Part shown: in pieces, positions 8,773 through 40,923 of the stretch
Position numbering within the stretch: position 1 is the stretch's first letter
Layout: the number at the start of each line of letters is the position of its first letter
Assembly (NCBI RefSeq): GCF_014898075.1
Contig: NZ_CP062976.1
Location: 2,232,001 to 2,296,000 of the forward strand
Reading direction: 5' to 3'
DNA from: Neisseria yangbaofengii
Lineage (GTDB): Bacteria; Pseudomonadota; Gammaproteobacteria; Burkholderiales; Neisseriaceae
Length of the DNA stretch: 64,000 nucleotides
Notes under the pieces: generated by a model
Told to the model about the DNA's origin: nothing
Databases searched by the model: none
The model's input: the letters and a program-made list of their open reading frames with translations, nothing else
Position numbers and translations under genes: made by a program

Positions 8773-9762
8773 TACTTTCTCTTTTCAAGTGCAACCTCTG
8801 TTAACAGAGGTTGGAAGATATTCAAGAATAAAACACTTGGTGTTTCATAGCCAAGTGTTTTTCTTGGACGGTGGTTCGGTTCATCTTGAACCTGCCGGAT
8901 TTCCTTCCCGCTGATTTTCCTGAAATCCGTCTGTTTCGGGAAGTATTGGCGTATCAGTCCGTTGGTGTTTTCGTTCGTTCCCTTCTCCCAAGAGTGGTAG
9001 GGGCTGCAGAAATAGGTTTCTGCTTTCAATGCGTCAGCGGTTTTTTTGTGCCGGTAAAACTCTTTGCCGTTGTCCATTGTAATCGTGTGTACCCTGTCTT
9101 TATGCGCCTTCAATGCGCTGATGACGGCGTTGGCGGTGTCTTCGGCTTTGAAGTCCTTCAACTTGCAGATGATGGTGTAACGGGTAACGCGTTCGGCTAA
9201 GGTCGGCAGTGCGCTTTTTTGGTCTTTGCCGATGATGGCGTCGGCTTCCCAGTCGCCGATGCGCGTTCTGTTGTTGACGGTTTTGGGATGGTGTTCGATA
9301 CCGACGCGGTCGGGAACTTTGCCTCTGGTCCATGTTTTGCTGCCGTATTTTTTACGGTAGGGTTTGCTGCATATTCTGAGGTGTCGCCATAATGTGCCGC
9401 CGTTGTTTCTGTTTTGGTGCAGGTTGCGGTAAACGGTGCTGTGGTGGAGCTTGATTTGGTGGTGTTTTCCGAGGTATCCGCATATTTGCTGCGGGCTGGG
9501 TTTTTGACGGATAAGGGTGTTGATCTGTCCGATGTAGTTGTGCGGTCATTTTGTATGGACCGCGCTTTTTCTGTTTGCGTTGGCGGCTTTGCTGTTGTGC
9601 CGGGGCGGCGCGATAGTCTTGGTTTTGGCTATGGCGTTTGATTTCGCGGCTGACGGTGCTTTTGTGGCGGCCGAGCGTTTGTGCGATTTGTGTGATGGTT
9701 TGGTGGCGGTAATGATGCTGAATGTGGTATCGTTCGTCTTGGGTCGGTTGTGTGTAGCGCAT
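8772..9762 (-). pseudogene. IS30-family transposase, frameshifted
   Basis: The N-terminal part (starting MRYTQPTQDERYHI, with an HTH containing LGRHKSTVSREIKRH) and the DDE catalytic part (IGDWEADAIIG, TMDNGKEF, YHSWEKGTNENTNGLIRQYFPK) are both well conserved but in different frames. The break lies at about 9535-9550, shortly after KKRGPYKMTAQ; a one-base change restores a full protein of roughly 325 residues. The stop codon lies outside the inferred terminal repeat, so the last residues (EKRK) come from flanking DNA. Confidence 0.85.
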
Positions 9763-9836: not shown

Positions 9837-10403
9837 TAGGCGAATCCGCCGGCCTTTCCCTTCCCTCTGCCTTATCAGCGGTTGTATCCCAAAATCAGGA
9901 AGTTAATTCCATCCGCGTCCGTCAAAACAGCCAAGCCGGTCCTCAAATCTCTACAAAATCCTCGTCATCCGCATCCGTCATTATGGACTGCCTATTCTAA
10001 AAAATATCCAAATAATCAAAAAAAATACCGCCTGTCTTTTTTTTCCCACAAACTTATGAAACCAATATGCAAAATGATTTACCCAAGATAATGTCCCGAA
10101 CAGTGAAAAAGCACAAAACCAAATCAAAAATTCATATATTTCATTCGCTTATTATTTTTTTATCATAAGCGGCAAAAAAAAACATTCCGGCAAACTGGAA
10201 AATATCTGCCTGCATCCCTCACCTTCCGTCATAAAAAAAATGACGTAAACCTTGATTTTTAATTTCATACTTTTACAATATGTATTGAAACTTTTCTTGG
10301 CGACTATCAATACCGTGTATTCAACGGTCTCATCCTTTTTCAGTTTACGGGGGCCGCCAGAAAAGAAACAACGTCCTTACACCCACCAAAAAAGGTAAAA
10401 AAT
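9837..10403. promoter_or_regulatory. AT-rich upstream region of the NadA-like adhesin
   Basis: 567 bp with no gene. It is AT-rich from 9980 on. No TAAA repeat tract, the phase-variation device upstream of meningococcal nadA, is visible. An AAAGG Shine-Dalgarno lies 8-12 nt before the adhesin ATG. I could not assign -35/-10 boxes with confidence. Confidence 0.4.
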
Positions 10404-27023: not shown

Positions 27024-27183
27024 GTTTTGCGGGGAACTTTGGTTTAACGGCCAAGCCAACGCCGTGCGGCTTTTAAAGCGAATTTGCGACAGCGTCTTTT
27101 CCTCTCTGTATTGCCGCTGCAAAATCCCTTATAATTTGCCCATCTGTAACCCTTTTCCGAGTGCGCCGCTGCGGCTGCACCGG

Positions 27184-27698
27184 CTGATAGAGCGAATACT
27201 TATGGACAAACTCAAAATCTCTGCCAACGGCCCGTTAAACGGTAAAATTACTGTATCGGGTGCCAAAAATGCCGCTCTGCCGCTGATATGTGCCGGTTTG
27301 CTGACTTCGGGAACGCTGCGGCTGAAAAACGTGCCGATGCTCGCCGATGTCAAAACCACGCAAAAGCTGTTGCAGGGCATGGGCGCACGGGTGCTGACCG
27401 ACAATATCAGTGAATTTGAAATCAACGGCGGCACGGTCAATAATACTTGTGCGCCGTATGAATTGGTCAGCACCATGCGGGCTTCGATTTTGGTGTTGGG
27501 CCCGACGCTGGCACGTTTCGGCGAAGCTCAAGTGAGCCTGCCGGGCGGCTGTGCCATCGGCTCTCGTCCGGTCGATCAGCACCTGAAAGGCTTGGAAACC
27601 ATGGGGGCGGAAATTGTCATCGAACACGGTTACGTCAAAGCCAAAGGCCGTCTGAAAGGCACTCGGGTGGTGATGGACGTGGTTACTGTCGGCGGAAC
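27184..27698 (+). pseudogene. Truncated murA copy (5' 515 bp)
   Basis: Starts at ATG 27202 and encodes the first 165 residues or so of MurA, nearly identical to 39652-40166 (constant offset 12468). Differences include Lys for Glu at residue 15 and Ile for Met near residue 29. The copy breaks off at GGCGGAAC (27698) where IS3 sequence begins. It has its own TATAAT at 27130-27135. A truncated MurA lacking most of domain 1 and all of the catalytic Cys115 loop's partner domain cannot be active. Confidence 0.9.
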
Positions 27699-28316
27699 AA
27701 AAAGAAAGTGCAGCGCATTATGGGTTTGTTGGGACTGAAAGCCAAAGTCCGCAGCAAAAAAGCCTACCGTCCGCAGGTAATAGGAGAGGCTTCGGATAAT
27801 ATTCTTAATCGTGAATTTACTGCTGGCAAACCGGCAGACAAATGGCTGACCGATATGACGGAGTTCAAATGCACAGACGGGAAGCTGTACTTATCGCCGA
27901 TATTGGATGTGTTTAATCGGGAGATTGTGGCCTATTCTTTAAGCCGCAGAGCAAACAGTAAAATGGTGGCGCAAATGTTGGATAAAGCATTTGGCCGTCT
28001 GAAAGGCCAAACGCCGCTGCTGCATTCCGACCAGGGTGTGCTTTACCGCACCGGGGCTTATCGGGCGAAACTGGCTGAGAAAGGAATGGTGCAAAGCATG
28101 TCGCGCAAAGGAAATTGCTGGGACAATGCGCCGATGGAGCGTTTCTTCGGTACATTAAAAGAAGAGAGCTTCTATCAGGAAGGTGCGTTGTCGGTGGCAG
28201 AGCTGACAGAGGTAATAGATGATTACATACGTTACTACAATCATAAGCGGATTAGTTTAAACTTAAAAAAGCTGAGTCCTGTCGGCTACAGAACCCAGCT
28301 TGAAAAGGCTGTTTGA
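27699..28316 (+). pseudogene. IS3-family transposase OrfB, 5' truncated
   Basis: Reads on from [18 protein letters not shown] to the stop at 28316, about 205 residues. The DDE integrase core is complete: KWLTDMTEF (D), LLHSDQGVLY (D), and NAPMERFFGTLKEE (E). The upstream HTH portion is absent and the frame differs from murA, so it is a remnant. Confidence 0.85.
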
Positions 28317-28712: not shown

Positions 28713-29867
28713 TTGGAAATCAAATTCAATATAGAGCAGGAAGAGTTTTACCGCGACTACCGCTACCGTAAGCCCTACCTGTTTAAACAAGCCTTGAACC
28801 TGCCCGACAAACAAACCCTGTGGCGCGAGATTAACGAAATATATCAACGGGCAAACCCGATAGACGATTCGTTCAAATTCCGCAAAGGGCGGCTGATTCC
28901 CAAAGAGCAATACGTCGAAGCCTTCGACAACGTCGGCAAAACACGCTACCGTTTTAACAAAGCCGCTGTGTACGAACACCTCAAAAACGGCGCGACTTTG
29001 GTGTACAACCGCATCAACAATGAACCGTTTTCCGACGGCATCGCCCACCAAATCGCCCAATTTGCCCGTGCACAGACCATCGTCAGCGGCTATCTCGCCT
29101 TCGGTGAAGATGCATCCTACAAAAACCATTGGGACACCCGCGACGTATTTGCCGTGCAACTCGTCGGCAAAAAACATTGGAGTCTGTCCGCTCCCAATTT
29201 CGAGATGCCACTCTATATGCAGCAAAGCAAAGACCTACCGCATATTCCCGAACCCGAAACGGCCGATATGGAAGTAGTATTGGAAGCCGGCGATATTCTC
29301 TATATCCCGCGCGGCTGGTGGCACAATCCCGTGCCGATGGGTTGCGAAACCTTCCATCTCGCTATCGGCACCTTCCCACCCAACGGCCATAATTATATGG
29401 AATGGCTGATGAACAAAGTGCCCGCCATCGTGGGCTTCCGTCACAATCTGCAAGGCTGGGAACATGATAAAAGCCGTCTGAAAACCGCCGCCGAGGAATT
29501 CGCCGCACAGATTGCCGACCCCGACAATTACGAAGCCTTTATGCAGGAATTTCTCGGCGAACAGCGCACCGACAGCCGCTTTGCCTTTGAAATCTTCGGC
29601 AACCCACATTCTGACGGCCTGCCCGAAGATGCCTTATTAAGTTTGAATACGGTGGATGCTTCTACGCTGGAGAAAGGGTATCTGATTGCGAATGGGATTA
29701 AGCTGAATATTGATGATTCAAGCATACTGTTATTAAAAGCTATTCAGCAAGCAGGTGTAATCAATATAAAGCAGTTTTTTCAATCTCAGGGAGGAGATAA
29801 GCTGAAGCTCACCGAAACAATTAATCATTTAATCCGATTGGATATTTTGGAAATTAAGATGGGATAA
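28713..29867 (+). CDS. JmjC/cupin-type oxygenase-like protein of the microcin island
   Basis: 384 residues. A double-stranded beta-helix fold of the JmjC type is indicated by HWD (His139, Asp141), LVGKKHW (Lys154, candidate 2-oxoglutarate ligand) and PRGWWHNP (His204), the Fe(II) His-X-Asp…His set. After about residue 330 the C-terminus (ILLLKAIQQ … LIRLDILEI) looks like a small winged-helix. The start is TTG at 28713 with AAGGA 8 nt upstream; the first 20 residues are Glu/Tyr/Arg-rich. By family it would hydroxylate a protein or peptide residue using 2-oxoglutarate and oxygen. Neighbouring microcin-like peptides make them the likely substrate (inference). Confidence 0.75.
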   Translation: MEIKFNIEQEEFYRDYRYRKPYLFKQALNLPDKQTLWREINEIYQRANPIDDSFKFRKGRLIPKEQYVEAFDNVGKTRYRFNKAAVYEHLKNGATLVYNRINNEPFSDGIAHQIAQFARAQTIVSGYLAFGEDASYKNHWDTRDVFAVQLVGKKHWSLSAPNFEMPLYMQQSKDLPHIPEPETADMEVVLEAGDILYIPRGWWHNPVPMGCETFHLAIGTFPPNGHNYMEWLMNKVPAIVGFRHNLQGWEHDKSRLKTAAEEFAAQIADPDNYEAFMQEFLGEQRTDSRFAFEIFGNPHSDGLPEDALLSLNTVDASTLEKGYLIANGIKLNIDDSSILLLKAIQQAGVINIKQFFQSQGGDKLKLTETINHLIRLDILEIKMG

Positions 29868-29869
29868 GA

Positions 29870-30103
29870 ATGGGTACTTTTTTGAAAAAATATATTTTTA
29901 ATCAGGATATTTTTTTTAGTGGATTAGCCTCATTTTTTGTAATGGCTTTTTTAGAAAACAGGATCAAACCTGATTTTTTTACCCACACTTTTTATTTGGA
30001 GAATAAATTAATTTTCCAAATAGTTTTATATGTTTTGTTTTTTTTGGGAGCTTTGTGGGTTAACCGTTTTTTTAATAGAGAAAAGGAAAAAGGAAATGCG
30101 TGA
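29870..30103 (+). CDS. Small membrane protein, cassette 1 (candidate immunity or accessory)
   Basis: 77 residues with two hydrophobic segments (FFSGLASFFVMAF and IFQIVLYVLFFLGALWV) and a basic tail (RFFNREKEKGNA). It starts 2 nt after the oxygenase and overlaps the next gene by 8 nt. A copy of the same module recurs in the third cassette (32776) and a partial one at 33740. Small membrane proteins encoded next to microcins often give self-immunity; here the role is inferred from position. Confidence 0.65.
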   Translation: MGTFLKKYIFNQDIFFSGLASFFVMAFLENRIKPDFFTHTFYLENKLIFQIVLYVLFFLGALWVNRFFNREKEKGNA

Positions 30104-30419
30104 ATTGAATATACAAGAATTGGAGTTTGTGTGTGGCGGCAAAGGAAAAGCTGCTGTAATAGAGAAAGTTAAGGATGCTACTACCGGTATATATCACGGT
30201 ATTGTAGGCTATAACTCTATAACTTCTGATGCAACATTAAAAGGAAATTTTGCAGCCGGATATGCCGGTGCCGTTACCTATACAAAAAGTGCAACTAAAG
30301 CAGGAATGGCAGGAGCAGCTGCAGGGACTGCTGCTGATGCTACAAATTCTAAAGATCAAGACAGATCCGGTAATGATTATGGAGATCAAGACAAATCTGG
30401 TAATAATTATGGCGGATAA
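30096..30419 (+). CDS. Double-glycine leader peptide, microcin-like, cassette 1
   Basis: 107 residues. The leader MRELNIQELEFVCGG (15 residues) fits the consensus for C39-peptidase exporters, with cleavage expected after GG. The mature part is Gly/Ala/Thr-rich (about 92 residues), with KGKAAVIEK at its start, and ends with SGNDYGDQDKSGNNYGG, a short form of the tail found on the other peptides. AAGGAAA precedes the ATG. Class II microcin-like; target unknown. Confidence 0.72.
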   Translation: MRELNIQELEFVCGGKGKAAVIEKVKDATTGIYHGIVGYNSITSDATLKGNFAAGYAGAVTYTKSATKAGMAGAAAGTAADATNSKDQDRSGNDYGDQDKSGNNYGG

Positions 30420-30586
30420 TAATAAACTTTTCTCAATAAGGAAAAAACACACTTTTCAGACTTCTGAATATTCATCATTTTTCTGAAAATTGGAAGGTGT
30501 AGGTATCATCTCCGCTTATCAAGCCTGAGCCTGCGTAGGTACTGTTACGTCGCTTGGAGAAGCTAACCGTACCTACCGCTGTTTTT

Positions 30587-30625
30587 CTTTCAGACGGCCT
30601 TTTTGCTTTCAGGCCGTCTGAAAAA
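30587..30625. terminator. Inverted uptake-sequence pair between cassettes 1 and 2
   Basis: TTTCAGACGGCCT and AGGCCGTCTGAAA around TTTTGCTTTC, in a block that also has GCGTAGGTAC. A similar block ends peptide 5 (35096-35136). Confidence 0.6.
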
Positions 30626-30631
30626 GCAACC

Positions 30632-30706
30632 GTAGGTTGGGTTGCCAAACTCAACAACCTCTTTTAACTTAAGGAATCCGTTGGGTATTGACCCAACCTA
30701 CACTTG
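30632..30706. repeat. Cassette-border repeat, copy 1
   Basis: About 75 bp beginning GTAGGTTGGGTTGCC and ending GACCCAACCTACACTTGCC, so its ends form an inverted repeat. It stands directly before the oxygenase C-terminal cassette. Copies at 32145-32222 and, degenerate, at 33622-33698. Confidence 0.7.
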
Positions 30707-30708
30707 CC

Positions 30709-31259
30709 GGTGGCACAATCCCGTGCCGATGGATTGCGAAACCTTCCATCTCGCTATCGGCACCTTTCCACCCAACGGCCATAATTATATGGAATGGCTG
30801 ATGAACAAAGTGCCTGATATTGTTGGCTTCCGTCACAATCTGCAAGGCTGGGAACATGATAAAGGCCGTCTGAAAACCGCCGCCGAAGAATTCGCCGCAC
30901 AGATTGCCGATCCCGACAATTACGAAACCTTTATGCAGGAGTTTCTCGGAGGCCAGCGCACCGACAGCCGCTTTGCCTTTGAAATCTTCGGCAACCCACA
31001 TTCTGACGGTTTGCCGGATGATGCAATGTTAAAGTTGAATGTGGTGGATACTTCGACGATTGAGAAGGGGTATTTGATTGCTAATGGGGTGAAAATCAGT
31101 ATTGATGAGACTGGTAAAAAGATTTTGGAGCTTATTGATAAAAATGCAACTTTATCTTTTAAAAGCCTATTAACAGATTTCAACAAAGACCAGTATGAGA
31201 AAATTAGAGAATTAGTTCATCAACTGGGAAAATTAGATTTTCTGAAGGCTATATTGTGA
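30709..31259 (+). pseudogene. Oxygenase C-terminal cassette 2
   Basis: Corresponds to the enzyme from Trp202/Trp203 onward: RWHNPVPMDCETFHLAIG, then closely similar to residue 330, and a different end (KKILELIDKNATLSFKSLL, LVHQLGKLDFLKAIL). It has His204 but not the HXD motif, so it is not an enzyme alone. A TTG in the border repeat (30642) could open the frame but this is probably chance. I infer a spare module for gene conversion with the full-length gene. Confidence 0.7.
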
Positions 31260-31266
31260 GGTATTT

Positions 31267-31494
31267 ATGAATAACTGGAAGCAATTTCTATTTTTCACAA
31301 TATTAGTAATCGTTTTTTATCAACTCTTATACTTTATATCAGATATTTTTTTCATAAAGTATATCCATAAATATCGTATAAATTTGAACTTTGTTCAAGG
31401 TAGTTTAAATTTTCTTTCACTATATTTACCCTATATTTTAGTAAACCGCATTTTTAAAAACAGTAATAAAAAAAAGGAGTGTAAAAATGATTGA
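31267..31494 (+). CDS. Small membrane protein, cassette 2 (candidate immunity or accessory)
   Basis: 75 residues: two or three hydrophobic stretches (FFTILVIVFYQLLYFISDIFF, FLSLYLPYILV) and a basic end (KNSNKKKECKND). Placed like the 77-residue gene of cassette 1, 7 nt after the oxygenase fragment and overlapping the peptide gene by 8 nt, but unrelated in sequence detail except general layout. GAGG precedes the ATG. Confidence 0.6.
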   Translation: MNNWKQFLFFTILVIVFYQLLYFISDIFFIKYIHKYRINLNFVQGSLNFLSLYLPYILVNRIFKNSNKKKECKND

Positions 31495-31840
31495 ACTCCA
31501 ACTTCAAGAATTAACGCTTGTTTCAGGAGGAAATGGAACAGCTGTAGCAAATAATATAGTAAGCAATACAGCTAATATTGCTACGACTAGAGAAGGGTTG
31601 ACTTGGGGAGATGTATTAGCTTTGCCTGCTGCTGCCGGTGCTACTTATTTTCTTCGTGGCGGAACTAAACAAGCTGCAGCGTCAGCTGCAACATATAATT
31701 TAGTTCGTGATTGGACAAATGACGCCATCAATGCACCTCCCTATAACGGAAGACCAATCTTTGAAATTGAACATGGGCTAACTGCACCAGCTAGTACAAC
31801 AGACAAATCGGGAAACAATTATGACGGAACAAATTATTAA
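31487..31840 (+). CDS. Double-glycine leader peptide, microcin-like, cassette 2
   Basis: 117 residues. Leader MIELQLQELTLVSGG, then a Gly/Ala/Thr-rich core beginning NGTAVANNIVSNT, a middle segment with ATYFLRGGTKQAAASA, and the tail DKSGNNYDGTNY. A strong AAGGAG lies 8 nt before the ATG. The core is unrelated to peptide 1; only leader and tail are shared. Confidence 0.72.
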   Translation: MIELQLQELTLVSGGNGTAVANNIVSNTANIATTREGLTWGDVLALPAAAGATYFLRGGTKQAAASAATYNLVRDWTNDAINAPPYNGRPIFEIEHGLTAPASTTDKSGNNYDGTNY

Positions 31841-31868
31841 TTTTTATACCTATCCTTAAAGGACTAAT

Positions 31869-32072
31869 ATGAAAATTACTATGAAAAATATCTCGCAAAA
31901 TTGGAAGGTTTTAGTTTTTTTAATCATTTCAATTAAATTTGTTACCTTTTTATTATTCAAAACTCTGGAAATTGAAAAAATATTTGGGATGGAATTCCAT
32001 CAGGCAAGTACTCTTATTAGTGTTCCTGTTTTTTTCTTGTATCTACATTTTAAAAATGAAAAGCCCGCATAG
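31869..32072 (+). CDS. Small membrane protein after peptide 2 (candidate immunity)
   Basis: 67 residues, two hydrophobic stretches (VLVFLIISIKFVTFLLF, ASTLISVPVFFLYL). AAAGGA lies 7 nt before the ATG. The opening MKNISQNWKVLVFLI resembles the remnant at 36945 (LKNILSHWKLLLILI), which also follows a microcin-like peptide. Confidence 0.6.
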   Translation: MKITMKNISQNWKVLVFLIISIKFVTFLLFKTLEIEKIFGMEFHQASTLISVPVFFLYLHFKNEKPA

Positions 32073-32144
32073 GTACGGTTAGCCGCCCCAAACGGCGTAA
32101 CCGTACAAATGCCTAAATATTATCAATCCATATCGGAAGCAACC

Positions 32145-32222
32145 GTAGGTTGGGTTGCCAAACCCAACAAACCTCTTTTAACTTAAGGAATCCGTTGGGT
32201 ATTGACCCAACCTACACTTGCC
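32145..32222. repeat. Cassette-border repeat, copy 2
   Basis: Near-identical to 30632-30706 and again directly before an oxygenase C-terminal cassette. Confidence 0.7.
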
Positions 32223-32773
32223 GGTGGCACAATCCCGTGCCGATGGGTTGCGAAACCTTCCATCTCGCTATCGGCACCTTCCCACCCAACGGCCATAATT
32301 ATATGGAATGGCTGATGAACAAAGTGCCCGCCATCGTGGGCTTCCGTCACAATCTGCAAGGCTGGGAACATGATAAAAGCCGTCTGAAAACCGCCGCCGA
32401 GGAATTCGCCGCACAGATTGCCGACCCCGACAATTACGAAGCCTTTATGCAGGAATTTCTCGGCGAACAGCGCACCGACAGCCGCTTTGCCTTTGAAATC
32501 TTCGGCAACCCACATTCTGACGGCCTGCCCGAAGATGCCTTATTAAGTTTGAATACGGTGGATGCTTCTACGCTGGAGAAAGGGTATCTGATTGCGAATG
32601 GGATTAAGCTGAATATTGATGATTCAAGCATACTGTTATTAAAAGCTATTCAGCAAGCAGGTGTAATCAATATAAAGCAGTTTTTTCAATCTCAGGGAGG
32701 AGATAAGCTGAAGCTCACCGAAACAATTAATCATTTAATCCGATTGGATATTTTGGAAATTAAGATGGGATAA
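32223..32773 (+). pseudogene. Oxygenase C-terminal cassette 3 (identical to the active gene's 3' half)
   Basis: Matches 29317-29867 without visible difference (offset 2906), so it encodes the same C-terminus as the full-length enzyme, and the match runs on into the membrane-protein gene. It lacks the HXD motif. The repeat could recombine with the first copy and delete cassette 2. Confidence 0.8.
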
Positions 32774-32775
32774 GA

Positions 32776-33078
32776 ATGGGTACTTTTTTGAAAAAATATA
32801 TTTTTAATCAGGATATTTTTTTTAGTGGATTAGCCTCATTTTTTGTAATGGCTTTTTTAGAAAACAGGATCAAACCTGATTTTTTTACCCACACTTTTTA
32901 TTTGGAGAATAAATTAATTTTCCAAATAGTTTTATATGTTTTGTTTTTTTTGGGAGCTTTGTGGGTTAACCGTTTTTTTATTAATAGAGAAAAGGAAAAA
33001 GGAAAAGCTACCGTAATAGAGAAAGTCAAGGATGCTACTACTGGTATATATCACGGTATTGTAGGCTATAACCTCTGA
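32776..33078 (+). CDS. Membrane protein of cassette 3 fused to a leaderless peptide remnant
   Basis: 100 residues. The first 76 match the cassette 1 membrane protein (one extra Ile in RFFINRE). It then runs directly into ATVIEKVKDATTGIYHG, the core of peptide 1, because the peptide start codon and leader (about 52 nt) are deleted between two AAAGGAAA repeats. The fused product stops at 33078 after an 8-nt deletion. Membrane part probably functional; fusion probably accidental. Confidence 0.6.
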   Translation: MGTFLKKYIFNQDIFFSGLASFFVMAFLENRIKPDFFTHTFYLENKLIFQIVLYVLFFLGALWVNRFFINREKEKGKATVIEKVKDATTGIYHGIVGYNL

Positions 33079-33439
33079 TGCAACATTAAAAGGAAATTTT
33101 GCAGCCGGATATGCCGGTGCCGTTACCTATACATATACAAAAAGTGCAACTAAAGCAGGAATAGCAGGAGCTGCAGCAGTAGCCGACGGGAAAGTTACAC
33201 ATGGTGAGATTGTATCGACAACCCTATTAGCAGGTACTGCCTCAAGAACTACAACTCTTTCCAAAGCTGGGGCAATAGGGTTAGCAGCAGAATTAGTTAA
33301 AATCGGCATTGATTATGCAGTCAGTCAACCACCATATAATGGAAAAATGATATACGAAATTGAGTATGACCCTAATACGAGAAATACAAAGAATGTAAAA
33401 GAAAAAGATGGAAACAATTATGACGGAACAAACTATTAA
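33001..33439 (+). pseudogene. Peptide 3, leaderless and frameshifted microcin-like gene
   Basis: Starts like peptide 1 (ATVIEKVKDATTG) but with no leader. After the 8-nt deletion near 33073 the second frame continues: AGYAGAVTYTYTKSATKAG, KVTHGEIVSTTLLAG, then a divergent core and the tail DGNNYDGTNY, stop 33437-33439. Without a leader the peptide could not be processed; it may be a silent donor. Confidence 0.6.
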
Positions 33440-33620
33440 AGTTATTAAATTTATATTAACTGTTATTATAGGAGTAGCACTATGGTGGTTAATAAAGTTT
33501 ACAATTAAAACTTGGCTTTACCCCTTATGGAACTTGCCATCAGATTCTGACTTAGGGTCTATATTTGCTATGTCCATCTCCATGATGATTGCTTATCGTT
33601 TGATTTACGGTAAAGCATAG
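33420..33620 (+). CDS. Small membrane protein overlapping the peptide 3 tail (candidate immunity)
   Basis: 66 residues (MTEQTIKVIKFILTV), a strong hydrophobic segment (FILTVIIGVALWWLIKFTI) and a second near the end (IFAMSISMMIAYRLIYG). Its ATG is inside the tail-coding DNA of peptide 3 (AATTATGACGG), so it overlaps that gene by 20 nt in another frame, typical of coupled immunity genes. Confidence 0.55.
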   Translation: MTEQTIKVIKFILTVIIGVALWWLIKFTIKTWLYPLWNLPSDSDLGSIFAMSISMMIAYRLIYGKA

Positions 33621-33621
33621 T

Positions 33622-33698
33622 GTAGGTTATGTCAAGTTCAACAAACCTTCCCTTATAACCCAAGAAATCCGTTGGGTTTTGGCTCAACCTACACTTGC
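33622..33698. repeat. Cassette-border repeat, degenerate copy 3
   Basis: GTAGGTTATGTCAAG … GTTGGGTTTTGGCTCAACCTACACTTGC. Here it is followed not by an oxygenase cassette but by the truncated membrane-protein module before peptide 4. Confidence 0.55.
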
Positions 33699-33830
33699 TG
33701 ATTTTTTGATAGAAATTTTATTTGAAAAATTAGTCAATTATGGATATTAGCCTGTGCGTGTTGTTTTTCATTGCGGCTTTATTGGTTAGCCTGTTTTTTT
33801 TAAGACAGAGAAAGGAAACGAAAATGCGTG
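33694..33830 (+). repeat. Duplicated module before peptides 4 and 5
   Basis: About 135 bp resembling 34702-34834: TTGCTGATTTTTTGA, AGAAATTTTATTTGAAAAAT, GTGTTGTTTTTCATTG, AGACAGAGAAAGGAAACG. Its open frame (LCVLFFIAALLVSLFFLRQRKE) is a leftover of the cassette 1 membrane-protein C-terminus. Confidence 0.65.
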
Positions 33831-34138
33831 AATTAGATGTTCGGGATTTGGAAATAATCAGTGGTTCTGTGGGCGTTCCCGGAGCAGTAGTAGGAGGAGT
33901 TGCTGGTTTGGCTGCATATTCAGGGTCTGTTGCAGCAGGAGGAAAAGAATTCAGCGTTAGGGATGCAACTTATGCGGCCGGTCTTGGTGCAATGACAGGT
34001 ACACTTACTGGGCCTGTAGGTATCGGTGTCGCCGTTGACACAATAGGTTTATCTACTGTCGGCGGGATTGCTCAAGGCGGATTAGGACGCCTTAGCGAAC
34101 AACAAGATGGCAACAATTATGACGGCACTAATTATTAA
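33824..34138 (+). CDS. Leader peptide, microcin-like, peptide 4
   Basis: 104 residues. Leader MRELDVRDLEIISGS has GS where GG is usual. The core is strongly Gly/Ala/Val-rich (GVPGAVVGGVAGLAAYSGSV, GAMTGTLTGPVGIGVAV) and could form a membrane-active helix, with the tail QQDGNNYDGTNY. AAAGGAAACG precedes the ATG. Cleavage at GS is allowed in some related peptides but may be slower. Confidence 0.7.
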   Translation: MRELDVRDLEIISGSVGVPGAVVGGVAGLAAYSGSVAAGGKEFSVRDATYAAGLGAMTGTLTGPVGIGVAVDTIGLSTVGGIAQGGLGRLSEQQDGNNYDGTNY

Positions 34139-34309
34139 AAAATACCTATAAATGTCACAGTAATCCGGTAACTGGTTAGCGTAAAGACAACCAGCCGAGA
34201 ATATATAAATATTACAAGGCAGGTTGATTCTAAAGATTAATTTACCAACTTCGTTGTTCATCATTCAATTTGATTCAGCAAGTTGAATTTTATAATGACA
34301 GGAGGATAC

Positions 34310-34486
34310 ATGAAATTTCTTTTGGGATTTGTTTTTTTAGGTACATTCTTAGTACAAGTTATTGTAGGGAAATTAATGGGTTGGGAAAATAAATTCGACA
34401 AACAAAAATATGAATTCGGAATCAGGTGGGTATTTTTCATTATTTCAGGCTTTGTGACAGGCTTGACCAGCCTGTTTCTTAAGTAA
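34310..34486 (+). CDS. Small membrane protein after peptide 4 (candidate immunity)
   Basis: 58 residues, two hydrophobic segments (FLLGFVFLGTFLVQVIVG, WVFFIISGFVTGLTSLFL). AGGAGG lies 5 nt before the ATG at 34310; an upstream in-frame ATG (34283) lacks a ribosome site. No family recognised. Confidence 0.6.
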   Translation: MKFLLGFVFLGTFLVQVIVGKLMGWENKFDKQKYEFGIRWVFFIISGFVTGLTSLFLK

Positions 34487-34519
34487 ATAAAGGTCTCATA
34501 ACTTCCGCAAAGGTTTTCA

Positions 34520-34690
34520 ATGTCTCCATATATTACTGTCTGTATTAGCTTGTTTTTTTCTTTATTTTTTTTAGCGAGGATTTTTCAACTTAGTGCAAAA
34601 TTTAAAAAAAAATATGGATTTAATATCCATATCCTATCCTTAATAATTGCCATATTCACGACTATTGTCTTGTATTTATGCCATCAATAG
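34520..34690 (+). CDS. Very small membrane protein (56 residues)
   Basis: MSPYITVCISLFFSLFFLA then KFKKKYGFN then a second hydrophobic segment (LSLIIAIFTTIVLYL). AAAGG lies 8 nt upstream. Two-helix hairpin with a basic loop; candidate immunity or accessory protein. It is shorter than usual annotation cut-offs. Confidence 0.5.
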   Translation: MSPYITVCISLFFSLFFLARIFQLSAKFKKKYGFNIHILSLIIAIFTTIVLYLCHQ

Positions 34691-34826
34691 CCCGCGTAGG
34701 TTGCTGATTTTTTGACAGAAATTTTATTTGAAAAATCAGTTGATTATCGACATTGCCTGTACGTGTTGTTTTTCATTGTAGCTTTATTGGTCAGACTGTT
34801 TTTTAAGACAGAGAAAGGAAACGGAA

Positions 34827-35132
34827 ATGCGTGAGTTAGCTATTCGGGATTTGGAAATTGTATTTGGCGGACAAGACAAATATGAATCAATCGTTGGGAA
34901 AATTGGAGAGTTCATTGGGCAACGTGTAGGAGTAGCAACAGGGCTAATGTCAGGAACATTCACCGGTGCTGCAGGAGGAGCTCTTTACCTGAATGCGACC
35001 TCTACCGCTATGGCATTAGGAGGCTTAATTGCTTACCTTATTTTTATCGTCATCCTGAAGGGTAAAAGGCATAACCTGCGTAGGTACATTTTTTTCTTTC
35101 AGACGGCCTTTTTTTACTTTCAGGCCGTCTGA
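34827..35132 (+). CDS. Leader peptide, microcin-like, peptide 5 (3' end probably altered)
   Basis: 101 residues. Leader MRELAIRDLEIVFGG, then a core with GKIGEFIGQRVGVATG and GTFTGAAGGALYL. It lacks the GNNYDGTNY tail: from about residue 80 the frame runs into GCGTAGGTAC and an uptake-sequence hairpin (35096-35136), giving a Phe-rich end. I infer that the original 3' end was lost. Confidence 0.6.
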   Translation: MRELAIRDLEIVFGGQDKYESIVGKIGEFIGQRVGVATGLMSGTFTGAAGGALYLNATSTAMALGGLIAYLIFIVILKGKRHNLRRYIFFFQTAFFYFQAV

Positions 35133-35136
35133 AAAA
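35096..35136. terminator. Inverted uptake-sequence pair inside the 3' end of peptide 5
   Basis: TTTCAGACGGCCT and AGGCCGTCTGAAA around a T-rich spacer, 27 nt before the HlyD start. Confidence 0.6.
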
Positions 35137-35162
35137 GTTTCTAATATTTAACTATATCAATC

Positions 35163-36434
35163 ATGTCACAAACCCCTTTTTTCCGCCCTGAAGTGTTGGC
35201 CGCCCGTGAAAACCGCTGGACAGGCAGGATTATCCTTACGCGGCCGTTTTCTTTTGCCTTTCTGACCGGCTGCGCCTGCTTGATTGCGTCGGCGATTGTG
35301 TTGTTTCTGATTTTCGGCAGTTATACCGAAAAAACGACGGTTGAAGGCCAGCTTTTACCAGATTCGGGAGTGGTGCGGGTGTATGCGCCGGATTCGGGAG
35401 TGATTACGGAAAAGTTTGTCAACGATGGAGCAAAGGTGAAGGCGGGCGATAAATTGTTTGCGCTTTCAACCTCCCGCTTCGGAGCGCAGGGTAATATTCA
35501 GGAACGGCTGGTTTCAGAAGCGGCTTTAAAAAAGACGTTGGCGGAACAGGAATTGGCACGGCTGAAGCTGATTCATGACAATGAAAAACGTTCGCTGGAA
35601 GGCACACTCAACCGTTTGAAAATCCAACACCGCCATATTGGCCAACGTATTACCGGCCAAAAAAGCCGGGTAAGACTGGCTGAAGAAATATTGAGGAAAT
35701 ACCGTTATTTAAGTGTGAATGATGCAGTATCAAAGCAGGAATTGATGAATGTGGAAGCCGAAATGTTGGAACAGAGATCAAAACTAGATGCCTACCGCAG
35801 TGAGGAGGCGGGCTTATTGCAGGAGATTCAGACGCAGAATCTGACATTGGCGAGCCTGCCCGAACGCCATAAAACCGAACAAAGCCAATTGGAGCGTGCG
35901 ATTGCGGATATTTCGCAAGAGGTGTTGGATTTTAAAATGCGCTCGGAACAGATTATCCGTGCGGGTAAAACGGGCTATGCGGCCACGCCGAATGTGGAAG
36001 TCGGCCAACAGGTTGATCCAACGCGGCTTCTGATGAGTATCGTGCCGGAACAGACCGAACTTTATGCCAGCCTTTATGTGCCGAGTAAAGCGGCGGGTTT
36101 TGTGAAACCGAACGAGAAAGTGGTGTTGCGCTATCAGGCTTACCCGTATCAGAAATTCGGTCATGCGGAAGGCGAAATTGTTTCTGTAGCGAAAACGGCT
36201 TTGGGTAAACAGGAGCTTTCAGGGCTGGGGCTGATTTTCTCTAATCCTGCTTTGATCAATGAGCCGGCCTATTTGGTCAAGGTTAAGCTGAAAAAGCAGA
36301 CGGTAACGGCTTACGGCGAAGAAAAACCGCTGCAAATCGGGATGACGCTGGAAGCGGATATCCTGCATGGAAAAAAGAAGCTGTATGAGTGGGTTTTGGA
36401 TCCGATTTACAGCATTTCGGGGAAGTTAAATTAA
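35163..36434 (+). CDS. HlyD/CvaA-type membrane fusion protein for microcin export
   Basis: 423 residues. An N-terminal cytoplasmic arm, one transmembrane helix (FAFLTGCACLIASAIVLFLIF, about residues 30-50), a lipoyl-like half (GQLLPDSGVVRVYAPDSGVI), a long coiled-coil hairpin (residues 110-270) and a beta-barrel C-terminus. It bridges the inner-membrane ABC exporter and TolC. Placed after the peptides and about 0.9 kb before the peptidase-ABC gene, as in colicin V and MccH47 clusters. Confidence 0.88.
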   Translation: MSQTPFFRPEVLAARENRWTGRIILTRPFSFAFLTGCACLIASAIVLFLIFGSYTEKTTVEGQLLPDSGVVRVYAPDSGVITEKFVNDGAKVKAGDKLFALSTSRFGAQGNIQERLVSEAALKKTLAEQELARLKLIHDNEKRSLEGTLNRLKIQHRHIGQRITGQKSRVRLAEEILRKYRYLSVNDAVSKQELMNVEAEMLEQRSKLDAYRSEEAGLLQEIQTQNLTLASLPERHKTEQSQLERAIADISQEVLDFKMRSEQIIRAGKTGYAATPNVEVGQQVDPTRLLMSIVPEQTELYASLYVPSKAAGFVKPNEKVVLRYQAYPYQKFGHAEGEIVSVAKTALGKQELSGLGLIFSNPALINEPAYLVKVKLKKQTVTAYGEEKPLQIGMTLEADILHGKKKLYEWVLDPIYSISGKLN

Positions 36435-36544
36435 ATTGCTCAGATAAAAAGTAAGACCATCAAGCCAAACCTTACTGAAAACCATTCGGAAATTCCATTG
36501 CCACATGGTTTTTCTGATACATGGGACATTTACCGGAGCGGCAT

Positions 36545-36768
36545 TATAGTGAATTCATTTTAAAAGTATTACAACGTAAACGGCCTTTTCCCAATTTTCA
36601 GACGGCATCAATGTGAGCTAAAGAACCCGTGCGTGCTTTGGCACGCACCCTACCGTTGGCGGGAAGGGATTAGCTGTCGTAGGGTGGGCAACTTGTTGCC
36701 CGCCAAAACCATATTTCAACTATCATTGATTTACTGGTTTGTACAGAAAATTTGGTTGATTCACTATA
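36545..36768. repeat. Composite element with Correia-type ends
   Basis: Starts TATAGTGAATTC, ends GATTCACTATA, 224 bp, larger than a normal CREE. Inside are a TTTCAGACGGC uptake site and CGTAGGGTGGGCAACTTG, a common neisserial repeat. It replaces the 5' part of the next peptide gene. Confidence 0.55.
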
Positions 36769-36954
36769 GGTGCTTTGGTAACTGCCAGAAATCCTATTGA
36801 AATTATAGCTGGCAGTTTGGCAGGAGGTATTACGGGCAATGAAATCGGTTCGAAACTCGGAGAAAAAGTAGGAGGTGATAGCGGTGCAGCTATTGGCAAA
36901 AGATTAGACGGTTCTCATCATAAAATATTGTCAGGAGCGTCACTGTGCAAATAA
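36769..36954 (+). pseudogene. Remnant of a microcin-like peptide gene (C-terminal part)
   Basis: An open frame directly from the Correia end: ALVTARNPIEIIAGSLAGG, then NEIGSKLGEKVGGDSG and a short end HKILSGASLCK. Gly-rich like the other cores. No start, leader or tail remains. Confidence 0.55.
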
Positions 36955-37155
36955 ACTTAAAAAATATACTTAGCCATTGGAAACTGCTGCTGATTCTAAT
37001 CATCGCTTTCCAATTGCTATTTCATTTGATTTTTAATTTTATAAACATTAAATACGTGAAGTTTAGGCGGTATTGTTAACTTGGGTGCTGCTTCCTTAGG
37101 AACCCTGCTGGCAAATATCGTTTTCTTTACCATCATTAAAATCAAAAAAACGTAA
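36945..37155 (+). pseudogene. Frameshifted small membrane protein (immunity-like) remnant
   Basis: A GTG start (36945) inside the peptide remnant's end reads LKNILSHWKLLLILIIAF, resembling the protein at 31869. It meets TAA at about 37077; the next frame continues with LGGIVNLGAASLGTLLANI and ends at 37155. A one-base change would restore a two-helix protein of about 70 residues. Confidence 0.5.
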
Positions 37156-37214
37156 CCCTAGACAGAAAGCTGTTTGAAACCGTCTGAAAACCCAGTTTGG
37201 CTTTCAGACAGCCT

Positions 37215-37335
37215 GAGAACTTTGCAAAACTTCATGGCCTGCCAATAAAAACTAAAACCGCCGTTATTCCCACGTAGGCGGGAATAACGGCGGTTATGTG
37301 CATTCTGGCATTTGAATGAGTTTTGCAAAGGTCTC
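37215..37335. repeat. NIME-type repeat with a dRS3 core
   Basis: Outer ends GAGAACTTTGCAAAAC and GTTTTGCAAAGGTCTC are inverted; the centre has ATTCCCACGTAGGCGGGAAT (37266-37285), a perfect dRS3 (ATTCCCN8GGGAAT), extended by CCGCCGTT/AACGGCGG. Lies just before the exporter gene. Confidence 0.85.
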
Positions 37336-37367
37336 AGGCTCTTTAAAACCACTTTACCTTGTCAATC

Positions 37368-39458
37368 ATGATGAATCCTTTAGACAATCTCTCTTTCGGC
37401 TTTAGCCGCAAACTTCCCGTGGTGTTGCAGACCGAAATCGCCGAATGCGGTTTGGCCTGTTTGGCATCAGTGTTGCGCTATCACGGTTTTTACACCGATT
37501 TGCGCACGCTGCGGCAGAAATACACGCTTTCGCTCAAGGGGGCGAATATGGCGGATATTGTGCGCTTCGGCGACGATATGAACCTTACTTCGCGTGCGTT
37601 GCGTTTGGAGTTGGACGAATTGGCCAATCTGCGTCTGCCCTGTATCCTGCATTGGGATTTGAATCATTTTGTGGTGCTCAAATCGGTGTCTGCCGACCAT
37701 ATCACGGTGATGGATCCGGCGACGGGGTTACGCAAAGTGAAAATGGCGGAAGTATCGCGCAAGTTTACCGGCGTGGCTTTGGAAATGTGGCCGAACACGC
37801 AGTTTGAGGAAAAGAAAGAGGTGCAGCGCGTCAAAATTCTGCCTATGCTCAAGGGAATTACAGGCTTGCGCCGTTCGCTGGTGCAGCTGTTGTTGTTGGC
37901 AGCGGCAATGGAAGTGTTTGCTTTGGTATCGCCTTTTTTTATGCAGTGGGTTATCGACCATGTGATTGTGACGGCCGACCGAAATTTGCTGGTTACTCTG
38001 GCTTTGGGCTTCAGCTTGCTCATGTTGGTGCAGCAGGGTGTTTCCTTATTGCAGTCATGGATAGGTATGCATTTTGCCACTACTTTGAGTATGCAGTGGA
38101 AATCGAATATTTTTAAGCGGTTACTGGATTTGCCGACGGATTATTTTACCAAGCGGCATTTGGGCGACGTGGTGTCGCGTTTCGGAGCAGCCGACAGTAT
38201 CCAAAGTACGCTGACGTCTACTTTTTTCGTGTTGATTCTCAACAGCCTGATGGCGGTATTTACGTTTACGCTGATGTTGGTGTACAGCCCGAAGTTGACG
38301 GCGGTGGTGTTGGTGACGCTGCTGATTTATGTTTTAATCCGTTGGGTTGCCTATTATCCGCTGCGTCGCGCCACGGAAGAGAATATTGTACATGCCTCCA
38401 AACAGAGCACTTATTTTATGGAAACCATACGCGGTGTGCAGACAGTCAAACAGTTCGGTAAAAGCACTCAGCGGCACGGTACATGGATGGGCTTGTTTGC
38501 GGACACGGTCAATACGGGACTAACGGCGCAAAAGCTGGGCATTTGGTTCGGCTTTGCCAATACGCTTTTATTCGGTATGGCCAATATCCTGATTGTGTAT
38601 TGGGGGGCACTGGATATTTTGGACAGTATGTTTACCGTGGGCGTGTTTATGGCTTTTTTGGCTTATAAAAGCCAATTTGAAAGCCGCATCGGCTCATTGA
38701 TTAATCATTTTGTGGAAGTAAAAATGCTGTCGCTGCACGGCGAACGTTTGGCCGATATTGTACTGACGGAAACAGAAAGCGAACGCACGCCCGATACCGG
38801 CATTCCTAATCTGGAAGGCGGTATCGAAATCCGCTTGGAAAATGTATCGTTCAGATACTCCGACAATGAACCTTATGTATTGAAAGATGTGAACTTAACC
38901 GTCAAAGCAGGGGAATCGCTGGCACTGACCGGACGGTCGGGTTGCGGCAAATCGACACTGTTGGATATTTTGTGTGGCAACCTCAAGCCCGAATCGGGTA
39001 AGGTACTGGTCAACGGCCACGATATTTACCGTCTGCCGCCTCGCTTTATCCGCAGCTTGAGCGCGGTAGTGCGGCAAAACGATGTTCTGTTTGCCGGTTC
39101 GATTGCTGACAACATTGGCTTTTTCGATGAAACGCCCAATCGTGACAAAATCGAACGATGCGCGCAAATGGCAATGATCCATGAGGAAATTATGGCTATG
39201 CCGATGGGCTATGAAACCTTAATCGGCGACATGGGCAGCGCACTTTCAGGCGGCCAGAAGCAACGTATCGTACTGGCACGCGCCCTTTATCAAAACCCGA
39301 AAATCCTGTTTCTCGACGAAGCCACCAGCCATTTGGATATTGCCAACGAAAAAGCCGTCAACGGGCATTTGAAAAACCTGCCGTTTACCAAAATCATGGC
39401 GGCGCATAGAAAAGAAACCGTAGAATCGGCCGACCGGATTTTTGATTTGGCTGCTTAA
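37368..39458 (+). CDS. Peptidase-containing ABC exporter (C39/CvaB type)
   Basis: 696 residues. An N-terminal C39 cysteine peptidase (QTEIAECGLACLAS with catalytic Cys near 28; His in LNHFVVL; Asp in VMDPATG), six transmembrane helices (about 160-440), then an ATPase with GRSGCGKST (Walker A), LSGGQKQRIVLARAL (signature) and ILFLDEATSHLD (Walker B). It removes double-glycine leaders while exporting the mature peptides with the HlyD protein. ATG at 37368 is preferred over an upstream TTG (37359); no good Shine-Dalgarno is visible. Confidence 0.92.
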   Translation: MMNPLDNLSFGFSRKLPVVLQTEIAECGLACLASVLRYHGFYTDLRTLRQKYTLSLKGANMADIVRFGDDMNLTSRALRLELDELANLRLPCILHWDLNHFVVLKSVSADHITVMDPATGLRKVKMAEVSRKFTGVALEMWPNTQFEEKKEVQRVKILPMLKGITGLRRSLVQLLLLAAAMEVFALVSPFFMQWVIDHVIVTADRNLLVTLALGFSLLMLVQQGVSLLQSWIGMHFATTLSMQWKSNIFKRLLDLPTDYFTKRHLGDVVSRFGAADSIQSTLTSTFFVLILNSLMAVFTFTLMLVYSPKLTAVVLVTLLIYVLIRWVAYYPLRRATEENIVHASKQSTYFMETIRGVQTVKQFGKSTQRHGTWMGLFADTVNTGLTAQKLGIWFGFANTLLFGMANILIVYWGALDILDSMFTVGVFMAFLAYKSQFESRIGSLINHFVEVKMLSLHGERLADIVLTETESERTPDTGIPNLEGGIEIRLENVSFRYSDNEPYVLKDVNLTVKAGESLALTGRSGCGKSTLLDILCGNLKPESGKVLVNGHDIYRLPPRFIRSLSAVVRQNDVLFAGSIADNIGFFDETPNRDKIERCAQMAMIHEEIMAMPMGYETLIGDMGSALSGGQKQRIVLARALYQNPKILFLDEATSHLDIANEKAVNGHLKNLPFTKIMAAHRKETVESADRIFDLAA

Positions 39459-39605: not shown

Positions 39606-39669
39606 CCCAAGTCAAACCTCATTTTTACGCCCAAACACTGTGTTTTGGCGACTGATAAAGCGAATACTT

Positions 39670-40923
39670 ATGGACAAACTCAAAATCTCTGCTAACGGCC
39701 CGTTAAACGGTGAAATTACTGTATCGGGTGCCAAAAATGCCGCTCTGCCGCTGATGTGTGCCGGTTTGCTGACTTCGGGAACGCTGCGGCTGAAAAACGT
39801 GCCGATGCTCGCCGATGTCAAAACCACGCAAAAGCTGTTGCAGGGCATGGGCGCACGGGTGCTGACCGACAATATCAGTGAATTTGAAATCAACGGCGGC
39901 ACGGTCAATAATACTTGTGCGCCGTATGAATTGGTCAGCACCATGCGGGCTTCGATTTTGGTGTTGGGCCCGACGCTGGCACGTTTCGGCGAAGCTCAAG
40001 TGAGCCTGCCGGGCGGCTGCGCCATCGGCTCTCGTCCGGTCGATCAGCACCTGAAAGGCTTGGAAACCATGGGGGCGGAAATTGTCATCGAACACGGTTA
40101 CGTCAAAGCCAAAGGCCGTCTGAAAGGCACTCGGGTGGTGATGGACGTGGTTACTGTCGGCGGAACGGAAAACCTGCTGATGGCGGCGACGCTGGCGGAA
40201 GGAACAACGGTATTGGAAAACTGCGCCATCGAGCCGGAAGTGGTCGATTTGGCGGAATGTTTGGTAAAAATGGGGGCGAAAATCAGCGGCATCGGCACTT
40301 CGACCATGACGGTCGAGGGTGTGAAAGAGCTGCACGGCTGCGAACACAGCGTGGTTCCCGACCGCATCGAGGCGGGCACGTTCCTCTGCGCCGTGGCGAT
40401 GACCGGCGGCAAAGTGGTGCTGCGCAATGCTGCACCGAAAACAATGGAAGTGGTGTTGGACAAACTGGTTGAAGCCGGTGCCGTAATTGAGGCGGGCGAC
40501 GACTGGATTGCCATCGATATGCAGCAACGCCCGAAAGCGGTGGACATCCGCACCGTCGTCCACCCCGGTTTCCCGACCGATATGCAGGCGCAGTTTATGG
40601 CGATGAATGCGGTTGCCGAAGGCAGCTGCCGTGTGGTGGAAACCATTTTTGAAAACCGCTTTATGCACGTTCCCGAACTCAACCGCATGGGTGCGAACAT
40701 CACTACCGAGGGCAACACGGCTTTCGTGACCGGCGTGGAAACCCTTTCCGGCGCGACCGTAATGGCTACCGACTTGCGCGCTTCCGCCAGCTTGGTGATG
40801 GCCGGTTTGATTGCCAGCGGCGAAACCATCGTCGACCGTATCTACCATCTTGACCGCGGCTATGAGCACATCGAGAAAAAACTCGGCGGCGTGGGCGCAA
40901 AAATCGAACGCGTGCGCGGTTAA
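39670..40923 (+). CDS. murA: UDP-N-acetylglucosamine 1-carboxyvinyltransferase
   Basis: First committed step of peptidoglycan synthesis, adding enolpyruvate from PEP to UDP-GlcNAc. 417 residues. Start [20 protein letters not shown], with KNAALPL (substrate-binding Lys22 region), [15 protein letters not shown] containing the PEP-reactive Cys near 115, and the C-terminal [13 protein letters not shown]. Its first 515 bp are repeated upstream at 27184. Convergent position behind the island shows the island was inserted before or into murA. Confidence 0.97.

Follow-up and report, generated by a model that had tools for sequence, protein, structure and literature searches.

An oxygenase-bearing, class II microcin-like island of Neisseria yangbaofengii with a shared peptide tag and truncated copies of the enzyme gene

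We have found that an island of Neisseria yangbaofengii combines a JmjC-type oxygenase gene, small peptides with double-glycine-type leaders and a short shared tag, and a peptide exporter, and that it carries truncated 3' copies of the oxygenase gene. The island occupies positions 28713-39458 of a 64-kb stretch, referred to here as the window (bases 2232001-2296000 of a genome assembled as one contig, 2,645,607 bases long). Its order on the plus strand is a JmjC_2 gene, peptide cassettes together with small membrane open reading frames (ORFs), an HlyD gene and a C39-peptidase ABC exporter (PCAT) gene. Leader-bearing precursors, a C39-peptidase ABC exporter and an HlyD adaptor thus stand at one locus, as in class II microcin systems. 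We consider it probable that the island represents a class II microcin-like family in which the oxygenase would hydroxylate the tag, and in which the tail of the enzyme and the peptide would be exchanged as one cassette. For Acinetobacter, microcin, cupin, HlyD and PCAT have already been described together in print; our searches of open-licence PubMed Central papers yielded no account of the tag, of truncated enzyme 3' copies or of this gene set in Neisseria.

A previous sequence-only reading of this DNA had proposed an enzyme with a His139-X-Asp141…His204 site. The residues stand as written and are invariant in an alignment of 14 enzymes, as is K154, which we take to be at the 2-oxoglutarate-holding place of JmjC enzymes. 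Hidden Markov model searches, named in that reading as a check, assigned the protein to PF08007 (JmjC_2, E 4.3e-29) and PF13621 (Cupin_8, 1.5e-9), and its C-terminal domain to PF20514 (ROXA-like winged helix, E 3.6e-5), which was detected in seven of 14 relatives. Neither the enzyme nor the peptides matched a family above cut-off in an NCBIfam scan. RiPP recognition element-like folds have been reported on PF08007 proteins (PMC12710340), RiPP being a ribosomally synthesized and post-translationally modified peptide. A profile search of solved structures returned 16 sequences, the best of which were C2orf60 (TYW5), NO66, the L16 arginine hydroxylase (YcfD/RoxA) and MINA, with E 3e-8 to 1e-6 for these best matches, over the catalytic core.

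These matches raise the possibility that the enzyme is a housekeeping ribosomal oxygenase that lies here by chance, a case that had been named beforehand as telling against the island's enzyme being part of a peptide system. It has the JmjC core with HxD...H of the ribosomal oxygenases RoxA/YcfD, NO66 and MINA, and the same Pfam domains as RoxA-type enzymes. However, the match to YcfD stops at the catalytic core (E 6e-8), and the gene does not behave as a widespread housekeeping gene independent of peptide loci. A match at E <= 1e-10 was found in 10 of 46 Neisseria genomes including the window's own (eight near full length), whereas a sample of 368 other genomes of the class contained no member of the subfamily at E <= 1e-40. 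Relatives occur in Neisseria, Moraxella, Psychrobacter, Acinetobacter, Vreelandella, Pseudomonas and Lautropia genomes (16 loci), and on plasmids, namely Moraxella pLQ510 and A. baumannii plasmids, they are accompanied by exporter and peptides. A housekeeping role is therefore very improbable.

A neighborhood survey covered loci whose enzyme gene is complete or almost so (n = 22; eight from Neisseria, seven from Moraxella and seven others, from seven genera), some of them broken or ended by contig ends. Left out of this set were L008 (a second gonococcal record), L009 (A. baumannii, with the same peptide as L007 and an IS5-family transposase gene inside the enzyme-gene region), L038, L039, L040 and L043 (the same contigs as L022, L023, L024 and L029), and L045, L046, L054 and L090-L093 (fragments only). 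HlyD was present at 20/22 loci and a C39-ABC exporter, whole or in part, at 19/22. Contig ends cut the HlyD of L030 and the PCAT of L025, L034 and L042 are broken (L042 keeps just 49 PCAT residues), and L032 and L035 have neither gene within the sequenced stretch examined. The recurrence of oxygenase, HlyD and C39 exporter across seven genera gives comparative support to the enzyme-peptide link, which the sequence-only reading had offered as inference, and the distribution of the tag supports it further.

Peptides that neighbor the enzyme differ in their cores and have in common a short unit, G-x-[D/N]-Y, mostly present twice (examples are GNNYDGTNY, GNDYCDDGTDY, GTDYCGDGTDY, GSDYGDGTNY and GNDYCEDGGNY). 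The tag is C-terminal in six genera. At four Moraxella loci (L027, L028, L032 and L034) the unit lies directly or shortly behind the leader, at residues 21-31, which suggests that it behaves as a unit of its own. Sixteen tagged peptides, when aligned, are invariant at leader residues M1 and G14 and, within the tag, at G, Y, D, G and Y.

A strict pattern, G[NSTD][DNS]Y, was taken from the seven loci outside Neisseria and Moraxella, where 7/7 loci and 7/7 peptides carry it, and was then applied to the two held-out genera; this hold-out was by rule and not blind, as the Neisseria and Moraxella peptides had already been seen. The tag was found at 5/8 loci and in 11/15 peptides of Neisseria and at 4/7 loci and in 7/14 peptides of Moraxella, or 18/29 peptides and 9/15 loci altogether. 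Seven enzyme-less PCAT loci of Neisseria, one of them from the window's genome (L004; four of its five peptides counted), served as controls; another intended control, L053 of genome G031, has its PCAT in pieces and no leader peptide, and was not counted. None of the 45 control peptides, and none of the seven control loci, has the strict tag (Fisher's exact test against the held-out set, p 4.8e-10 by peptide and 0.010 by locus). The by-peptide value is too small because peptides of one locus are related, which tempers the result and makes the by-locus figure the safer one. With a looser tag pattern the counts were 28/36 peptides versus 3/45 controls.

Genomes that have lost most of the enzyme gene point the same way. 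A peptide profile searched through the 46 Neisseria genomes (E <= 0.01) matched in 19, many of the matches covering leader and core only. Matches extending into the tag were likewise obtained from four genomes that have no full-length enzyme (G037, G014, G016 and G009), and in each the tagged peptide adjoins pieces of the enzyme gene. In G037, G014 and G016 the last 33 to 62 enzyme codons lie immediately upstream of the peptide (E 3e-9, 3e-9 and 8e-8), the G037 peptide having internal stops, and in G009 several enzyme pieces surround the tagged peptide. The peptide thus stays with the enzyme tail even when the catalytic part is gone.

Several observations weigh against a tag-modifying enzyme as the common feature of these loci. 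The strict pattern finds no tag at six of the 15 held-out loci. At L044 the tagged peptide (GNGYSDGCDYC) has a 16-residue leader, one longer than the pattern; the peptide genes of L029 and L042 are frameshifted, with the tag in another frame; L025 has looser tags; and the peptides of M. oblonga L026 and of pLQ510 (L006) have no tag. Peptide 4 of the window is untagged as well. McbC of pLQ510 is untagged, yet the mcb locus kills (PMC2761928), so that a tested bacteriocin without the tag shows it not to be required by every member of the wider exporter family; the enzyme gene of pLQ510 is split into two ORFs in the record. Two genomes lack the exporter: G004 (L044) has enzyme, tagged peptide and HlyD and no exporter genome-wide at E <= 1e-100, and the whole genome of G020 has no PCAT match at the same threshold. 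The precursor of a distant system with an mctC-type enzyme has no visible G-x-[D/N]-Y tag.

A further difficulty is that the JmjC protein may instead be an immunity factor that modifies or shields a target in the producer, with the tag merely an export or receptor motif. In the Acinetobacter mcaABCD locus the cupin gene was read as immunity, and mcaB alone on a plasmid protected a locus-deletion strain, so the enzyme might act in immunity; that strain was, however, unaffected by wild-type microcin levels from the start (PMC10333792). The cupin gene mctC of the E. coli microcin Mcc1229 (mctABC) is required for production and activity, by in-frame deletion and complementation, which supports a biosynthetic role for such enzymes, whereas the immunity function has been assigned to mctDE (PMC8853679). 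The absence of the tag from the seven enzyme-less exporter loci is not what one would expect of a general export motif. Small membrane proteins are the usual form of immunity, and small membrane ORFs go with the window's cassettes. We regard an immunity function of the enzyme as unlikely, and prefer the reading in which it acts on the tagged peptide.

The features of the island and its edges in the window are as follows.

27181..27690, + strand: duplicated murA 5' end, 504/510 identical to 39649-40158; the pair is a direct repeat that bounds the island
27708-28316: transposase gene at the left island edge, after the partial murA
28713..29867, + strand: JmjC_2 (cupin) oxygenase, 384 aa, with HxD...H iron site H139, D141 and H204 and a C-terminal ROXA-like winged helix
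29870..30103, + strand: small membrane ORF, 77 aa, overlapping peptide 1; putative immunity protein or export helper
30096..30419, + strand: peptide 1, leader MRELNIQELEFVCGG, C-terminal tag SGNDYGDQDKSGNNYGG
30661..30707, + strand: boundary element, copy 1 of 3, opening truncated cassette 2
30711..31259, + strand: truncated JmjC gene copy from codon 203, 284/300 nt identical and then with a different winged helix
31267..31494, + strand: small membrane ORF, 75 aa, with 65% identity to its positional counterpart in N. gonorrhoeae L008
31487..31840, + strand: peptide 2, leader MIELQLQELTLVSGG, C-terminal tag DKSGNNYDGTNY
31869..32072, + strand: small membrane ORF, 67 aa
32175..32221, + strand: boundary element, copy 2 of 3, opening truncated cassette 3
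32225..32773, + strand: truncated JmjC gene copy from codon 203, the same as the full gene, with identity running on into the small ORF (750 nt in total)
32776..33439, + strand: duplicate of the 77-aa small ORF, then a peptide remnant lacking a leader (the remnant at about 32998-33439)
33408..33620, + strand: small membrane ORF, 70 aa
33652..33698, + strand: boundary element, copy 3 (85%), with no JmjC fragment behind it
33824..34138, + strand: peptide 3, leader MRELDVRDLEIISGS, C-terminal tag QQDGNNYDGTNY
34283..34486, + strand: small membrane ORF, 67 aa, two hydrophobic segments
34520..34690, + strand: small membrane ORF, 56 aa, two hydrophobic segments
34827..35132, + strand: peptide 4, leader MRELAIRDLEIVFGG, no tag
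35163..36434, + strand: HlyD-type periplasmic adaptor, 423 aa
36775..36954, + strand: Gly-rich peptide-like remnant without a leader
37368..39458, + strand: C39-peptidase ABC exporter (PCAT)
39670..40923, + strand: intact murA, chromosomal flank

The HlyD adaptor, the C39-peptidase ABC exporter and the small membrane proteins were all described in the sequence-only reading and are present at these places. It had also counted five or six small peptides, four with a leader; the four leader peptides hold, and two further ones are leaderless remnants. The 15-residue double-glycine-type leader pattern is found in exactly four ORFs (25-160 aa) in the window, all within the island (starts at 30096, 31487, 33824 and 34827), with one leader ending in GS instead of GG. 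In 200 Markov shuffles of the island the mean number of leader-pattern ORFs was 0.045 and the maximum was 1. Peptide 4 has a weak similarity to MccV (PF17508, E 0.01) that is under the cut-off. The enzyme-gene 3' copies, the peptide tag, the 47-nt boundary element and the murA direct repeat are features beyond that reading.

Both truncated enzyme copies start at codon 203, which immediately precedes that of the iron ligand His204, and each lies behind a 47-nt boundary element; a 25-nt piece of this element is present three times in the window, with no further copy there. The copy in cassette 3 is identical to the full gene over fifteen consecutive 50-nt blocks (750 nt), through most of the small ORF, and this identity, which indicates recent exchange or duplication, ends where the peptide of the cassette loses its leader. 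The copy in cassette 2 matches the full gene at 284/300 nt (95%) and then at 76/100, after which identity falls to chance level; the divergence spans the winged helix, the small gene and the peptide. Cassette 2 resembles a gonococcal cassette (65% identity for the small ORF, and 61% and 80% for the peptide in two pieces). The truncated copies are presumably silent. A DNA uptake word lies in each 3' arm (29473, 30865 and 32379) and was set aside, as its 83 copies per 64 kb are near chance.

Similar arrangements are found elsewhere. In M. catarrhalis L032 a second winged-helix piece precedes a second peptide, and in G009 the 3' arm of the enzyme gene is present twice. Island pieces of G009 are 94-98% identical to those of the gonococcus and the left flank 83-88% (the right flank is hardly covered), and the closer match of the island pieces is consistent with interspecies exchange. 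In a comparison of 14 loci, winged-helix distance correlates with peptide distance after catalytic-domain distance is removed (partial Mantel test, r 0.32, p 0.009, 5000 permutations), a modest correlation from few loci. Enzyme tail and peptide travel together, and it appears that the C-terminal half of the enzyme is exchanged along with its peptide.

The repeats could instead be decay products of a relic island whose peptides are unexpressed. Cassette 3 is leaderless, peptide 4 is untagged, leaderless remnants are present, a transposase gene and a partial murA flank the island, and several relatives are broken. Against decay, open reading frames remain for the enzyme, for HlyD and PCAT and for three peptides with a tag, the truncated copy that is identical over 750 nt reflects a recent event, and repeated enzyme 3' pieces recur in M. 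catarrhalis L032 and in G009. We find a relic improbable and favor an exchange system.

In the mechanism that we propose, the precursors with the 15-residue leader would be bound, through leader or core, by the winged-helix tail of the enzyme, and the Fe(II)/2-oxoglutarate site of the JmjC_2 domain would hydroxylate residues of the G-x-[D/N]-Y tag. The C39 exporter would cut off the leader and secrete the peptide with HlyD and a TolC-like outer-membrane channel of the host, after which the peptide may kill competitors; the small membrane proteins of each cassette would protect the producer. Enzyme tail, small gene and peptide would form one exchangeable cassette. The truncated cassettes start at codon 203, within the enzyme gene, so that homologous recombination across the shared 3' arm could place a different tail, along with the peptide that matches it, behind an unchanged catalytic domain. 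BipG provides a precedent for a JmjC hydroxylase that acts on a RiPP (PMC12707348).

The tag might also remain unmodified, as a metal-binding or enzyme-docking site, with the chemistry on another residue. It is short and rich in D, N and Y, and any chemistry of these residues is our deduction. Among the 16 aligned tagged peptides the invariant columns outside the leader all lie in the tag, which argues weakly against this alternative, as the peptides were chosen for the tag. We rate an unmodified tag as rather unlikely and hydroxylation of the tag as the better account.

The suggestion that no such oxygenase-peptide pairing was known is not supported by the literature. Mcc17978 (mcaABCD) of A. 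baumannii has the same gene set of microcin, cupin, HlyD and PCAT, and the passages cited from that paper make no mention of the tag (PMC10333792). JmjC_2, HlyD, PCAT and tagged peptide occur together in the window, as expected of an mcaABCD-type (JmjC) microcin family. At L007, an A. baumannii plasmid with the mcaABCD order (not ATCC 17978), the enzyme is 43% identical to that of the window and the peptide is tagged, with a leader ending in G-A; unlike the window it has a single peptide and a single enzyme copy, with no truncated copies seen. The mcbABCI locus of Moraxella catarrhalis pLQ510, a tested bacteriocin with an immunity gene, has HlyD (42% identical), C39-ABC (53%) and, directly upstream, the enzyme gene (57%); the words cupin and JmjC are absent from the main text of the mcb paper (PMC2761928). 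An mctC homologue on pHUSEC41-3, in the same gene order as mctABC, matches JmjC_2 at 3.3e-21 and differs from the window enzyme in its low identity (24%) and in having no winged-helix match. The Mcc1229-type precursor is Cys-rich at one end, and inspection by eye revealed no 15-residue double-glycine-type leader in it.

Other systems share parts of this design. Polymorphic-toxin cassettes such as those of MafB and CdiA are silent downstream cassettes with an arm common to the expressed gene; the exchanged end here is instead that of a modifying enzyme, with a peptide and a small gene behind it. The nap island of N. gonorrhoeae likewise has double-glycine peptides and a C39 peptidase, but its peptidase NapP works with a FapF-like channel in autolysis and not in killing of competitors, and the passages cited name no JmjC gene (PMC11798529). 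Two meningococcal bacteriocin islands, BGI-1 (meningocin) and BGI-2, were named in 2021 (PMC8627216).

A second HlyD and C39-ABC locus of the window's genome (L004, G000:C1:2296001-2312000) has an exporter 66% identical to that of the island and five double-glycine peptides by the leader pattern. Neither a JmjC gene nor the tag is present at this locus, whose peptides begin about 4 kb past the window and whose exporter begins about 12 kb past it. A stand-alone C39 peptidase (L005, G000:C1:382823 region; 224-aa frame), perhaps NapP-like, has no peptide with the leader pattern within 18 kb.

Class IIb siderophore microcins (MccE492 and MccH47) have a double-glycine leader, PCAT export, uptake through Fiu, FepA and Cir, and a conserved, Ser-rich C-terminal tail to which glycosylation enzymes attach salmochelin. 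The island differs in that its tail is G-x-[D/N]-Y and not Ser-rich, and no glycosyl or linkage enzyme of the class IIb kind was recognized among the ten island proteins scanned. It is hypothesized, tentatively and with more doubt than confidence, that the JmjC enzyme makes the tag a genetically encoded siderophore mimic that binds Fe(III) and is taken up by catecholate receptors (Fiu, PiuA, Cir and their Neisseria counterparts), and that recombination of tail-peptide cassettes changes the weapon. Such chemistry could consist of beta-hydroxylated Asp/Asn or of Tyr hydroxylated to catechol; both beta-hydroxy-Asp/Asn and catechol ligands occur in siderophores. It would be a one-enzyme, ribosomal answer to the class IIb microcins. 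Mcc17978, the product of mcaABCD, is induced by low iron and inhibits by entering E. coli via Fiu and Acinetobacter via PiuA (PMC10333792), Mcc1229 is Fur-controlled and enters via CirA and TonB (PMC8853679), and Fiu and CirA are catecholate siderophore receptors (PMC10333792, PMC8853679).

The lack of a Fur box in the window speaks against a siderophore mimic. The best candidate upstream of the window enzyme scored 12/19 (p 0.62), and among 17 loci scanned only Psychrobacter L037 (15/19), N. dentiae L022 and Vreelandella L030 (14/19) fell below p 0.03. We make no claim of iron control, because no convincing Fur box is found in the window. A TonB-dependent receptor gene at 24504-26969, just upstream of the partial murA, is not taken as part of the island since it has no relative at 16 related loci (E 1e-5).

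The murA direct repeats flank the island, and recombination between them could in principle remove it. In N. dentiae L022 and the metagenome-assembled genome (MAG) L023, too, murA lies next to the locus, on opposite sides in the two; it was not found in the other 15 loci searched.

Searches for relatives of the enzyme gave additional observations. A phage origin was rejected, as 50,697 phage records held no match (E 1e-5) and a viral-contig scan gave one relative at 22% identity; the phage protein family PHROG 8014, of unknown function, nevertheless has a match to the enzyme (28713-29864) at 1.6e-52, despite the lack of a close relative in those searches. L025, a Moraxella MAG, has two differing JmjC genes in tandem (8616-9728 and 10001-11131; 43% and 58% identical to the window enzyme) and several double-glycine peptides. 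Small mobilisable E. coli plasmids (25 Escherichia records) encode a distant JmjC_2 gene, which on L058 (NC_018997.1) lies behind an ABC transporter gene, the order of Mcc1229. The A. lwoffii plasmid NZ_MK978159.1 (L059) carries a distant cupin gene with an O-methyltransferase gene and a major facilitator superfamily transporter gene behind it. Distant cupin relatives are also found in 61 Streptomyces plasmid records, those listed being mostly 22-30% identical.

According to a 2022 review, the genes of a proposed meningococcal bacteriocin were unidentified and no Neisseria bacteriocin had been genetically and biochemically characterized (PMC9263626). The locus described here is a testable candidate for a bacteriocin family in Neisseria, and its recognizable tag allows peptides of the family to be located and tested. 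It also suggests what the unexplained cupin genes of Mcc17978 and Mcc1229 may do, and offers a reason for the uptake of Mcc17978 through siderophore receptors. If the tag is hydroxylated, this would be a new way of microcin modification. The joint swap of an enzyme's recognition domain and its substrate would be an unusual route to diversity, and tail-peptide swapping could explain how such bacteria retool their weapons.

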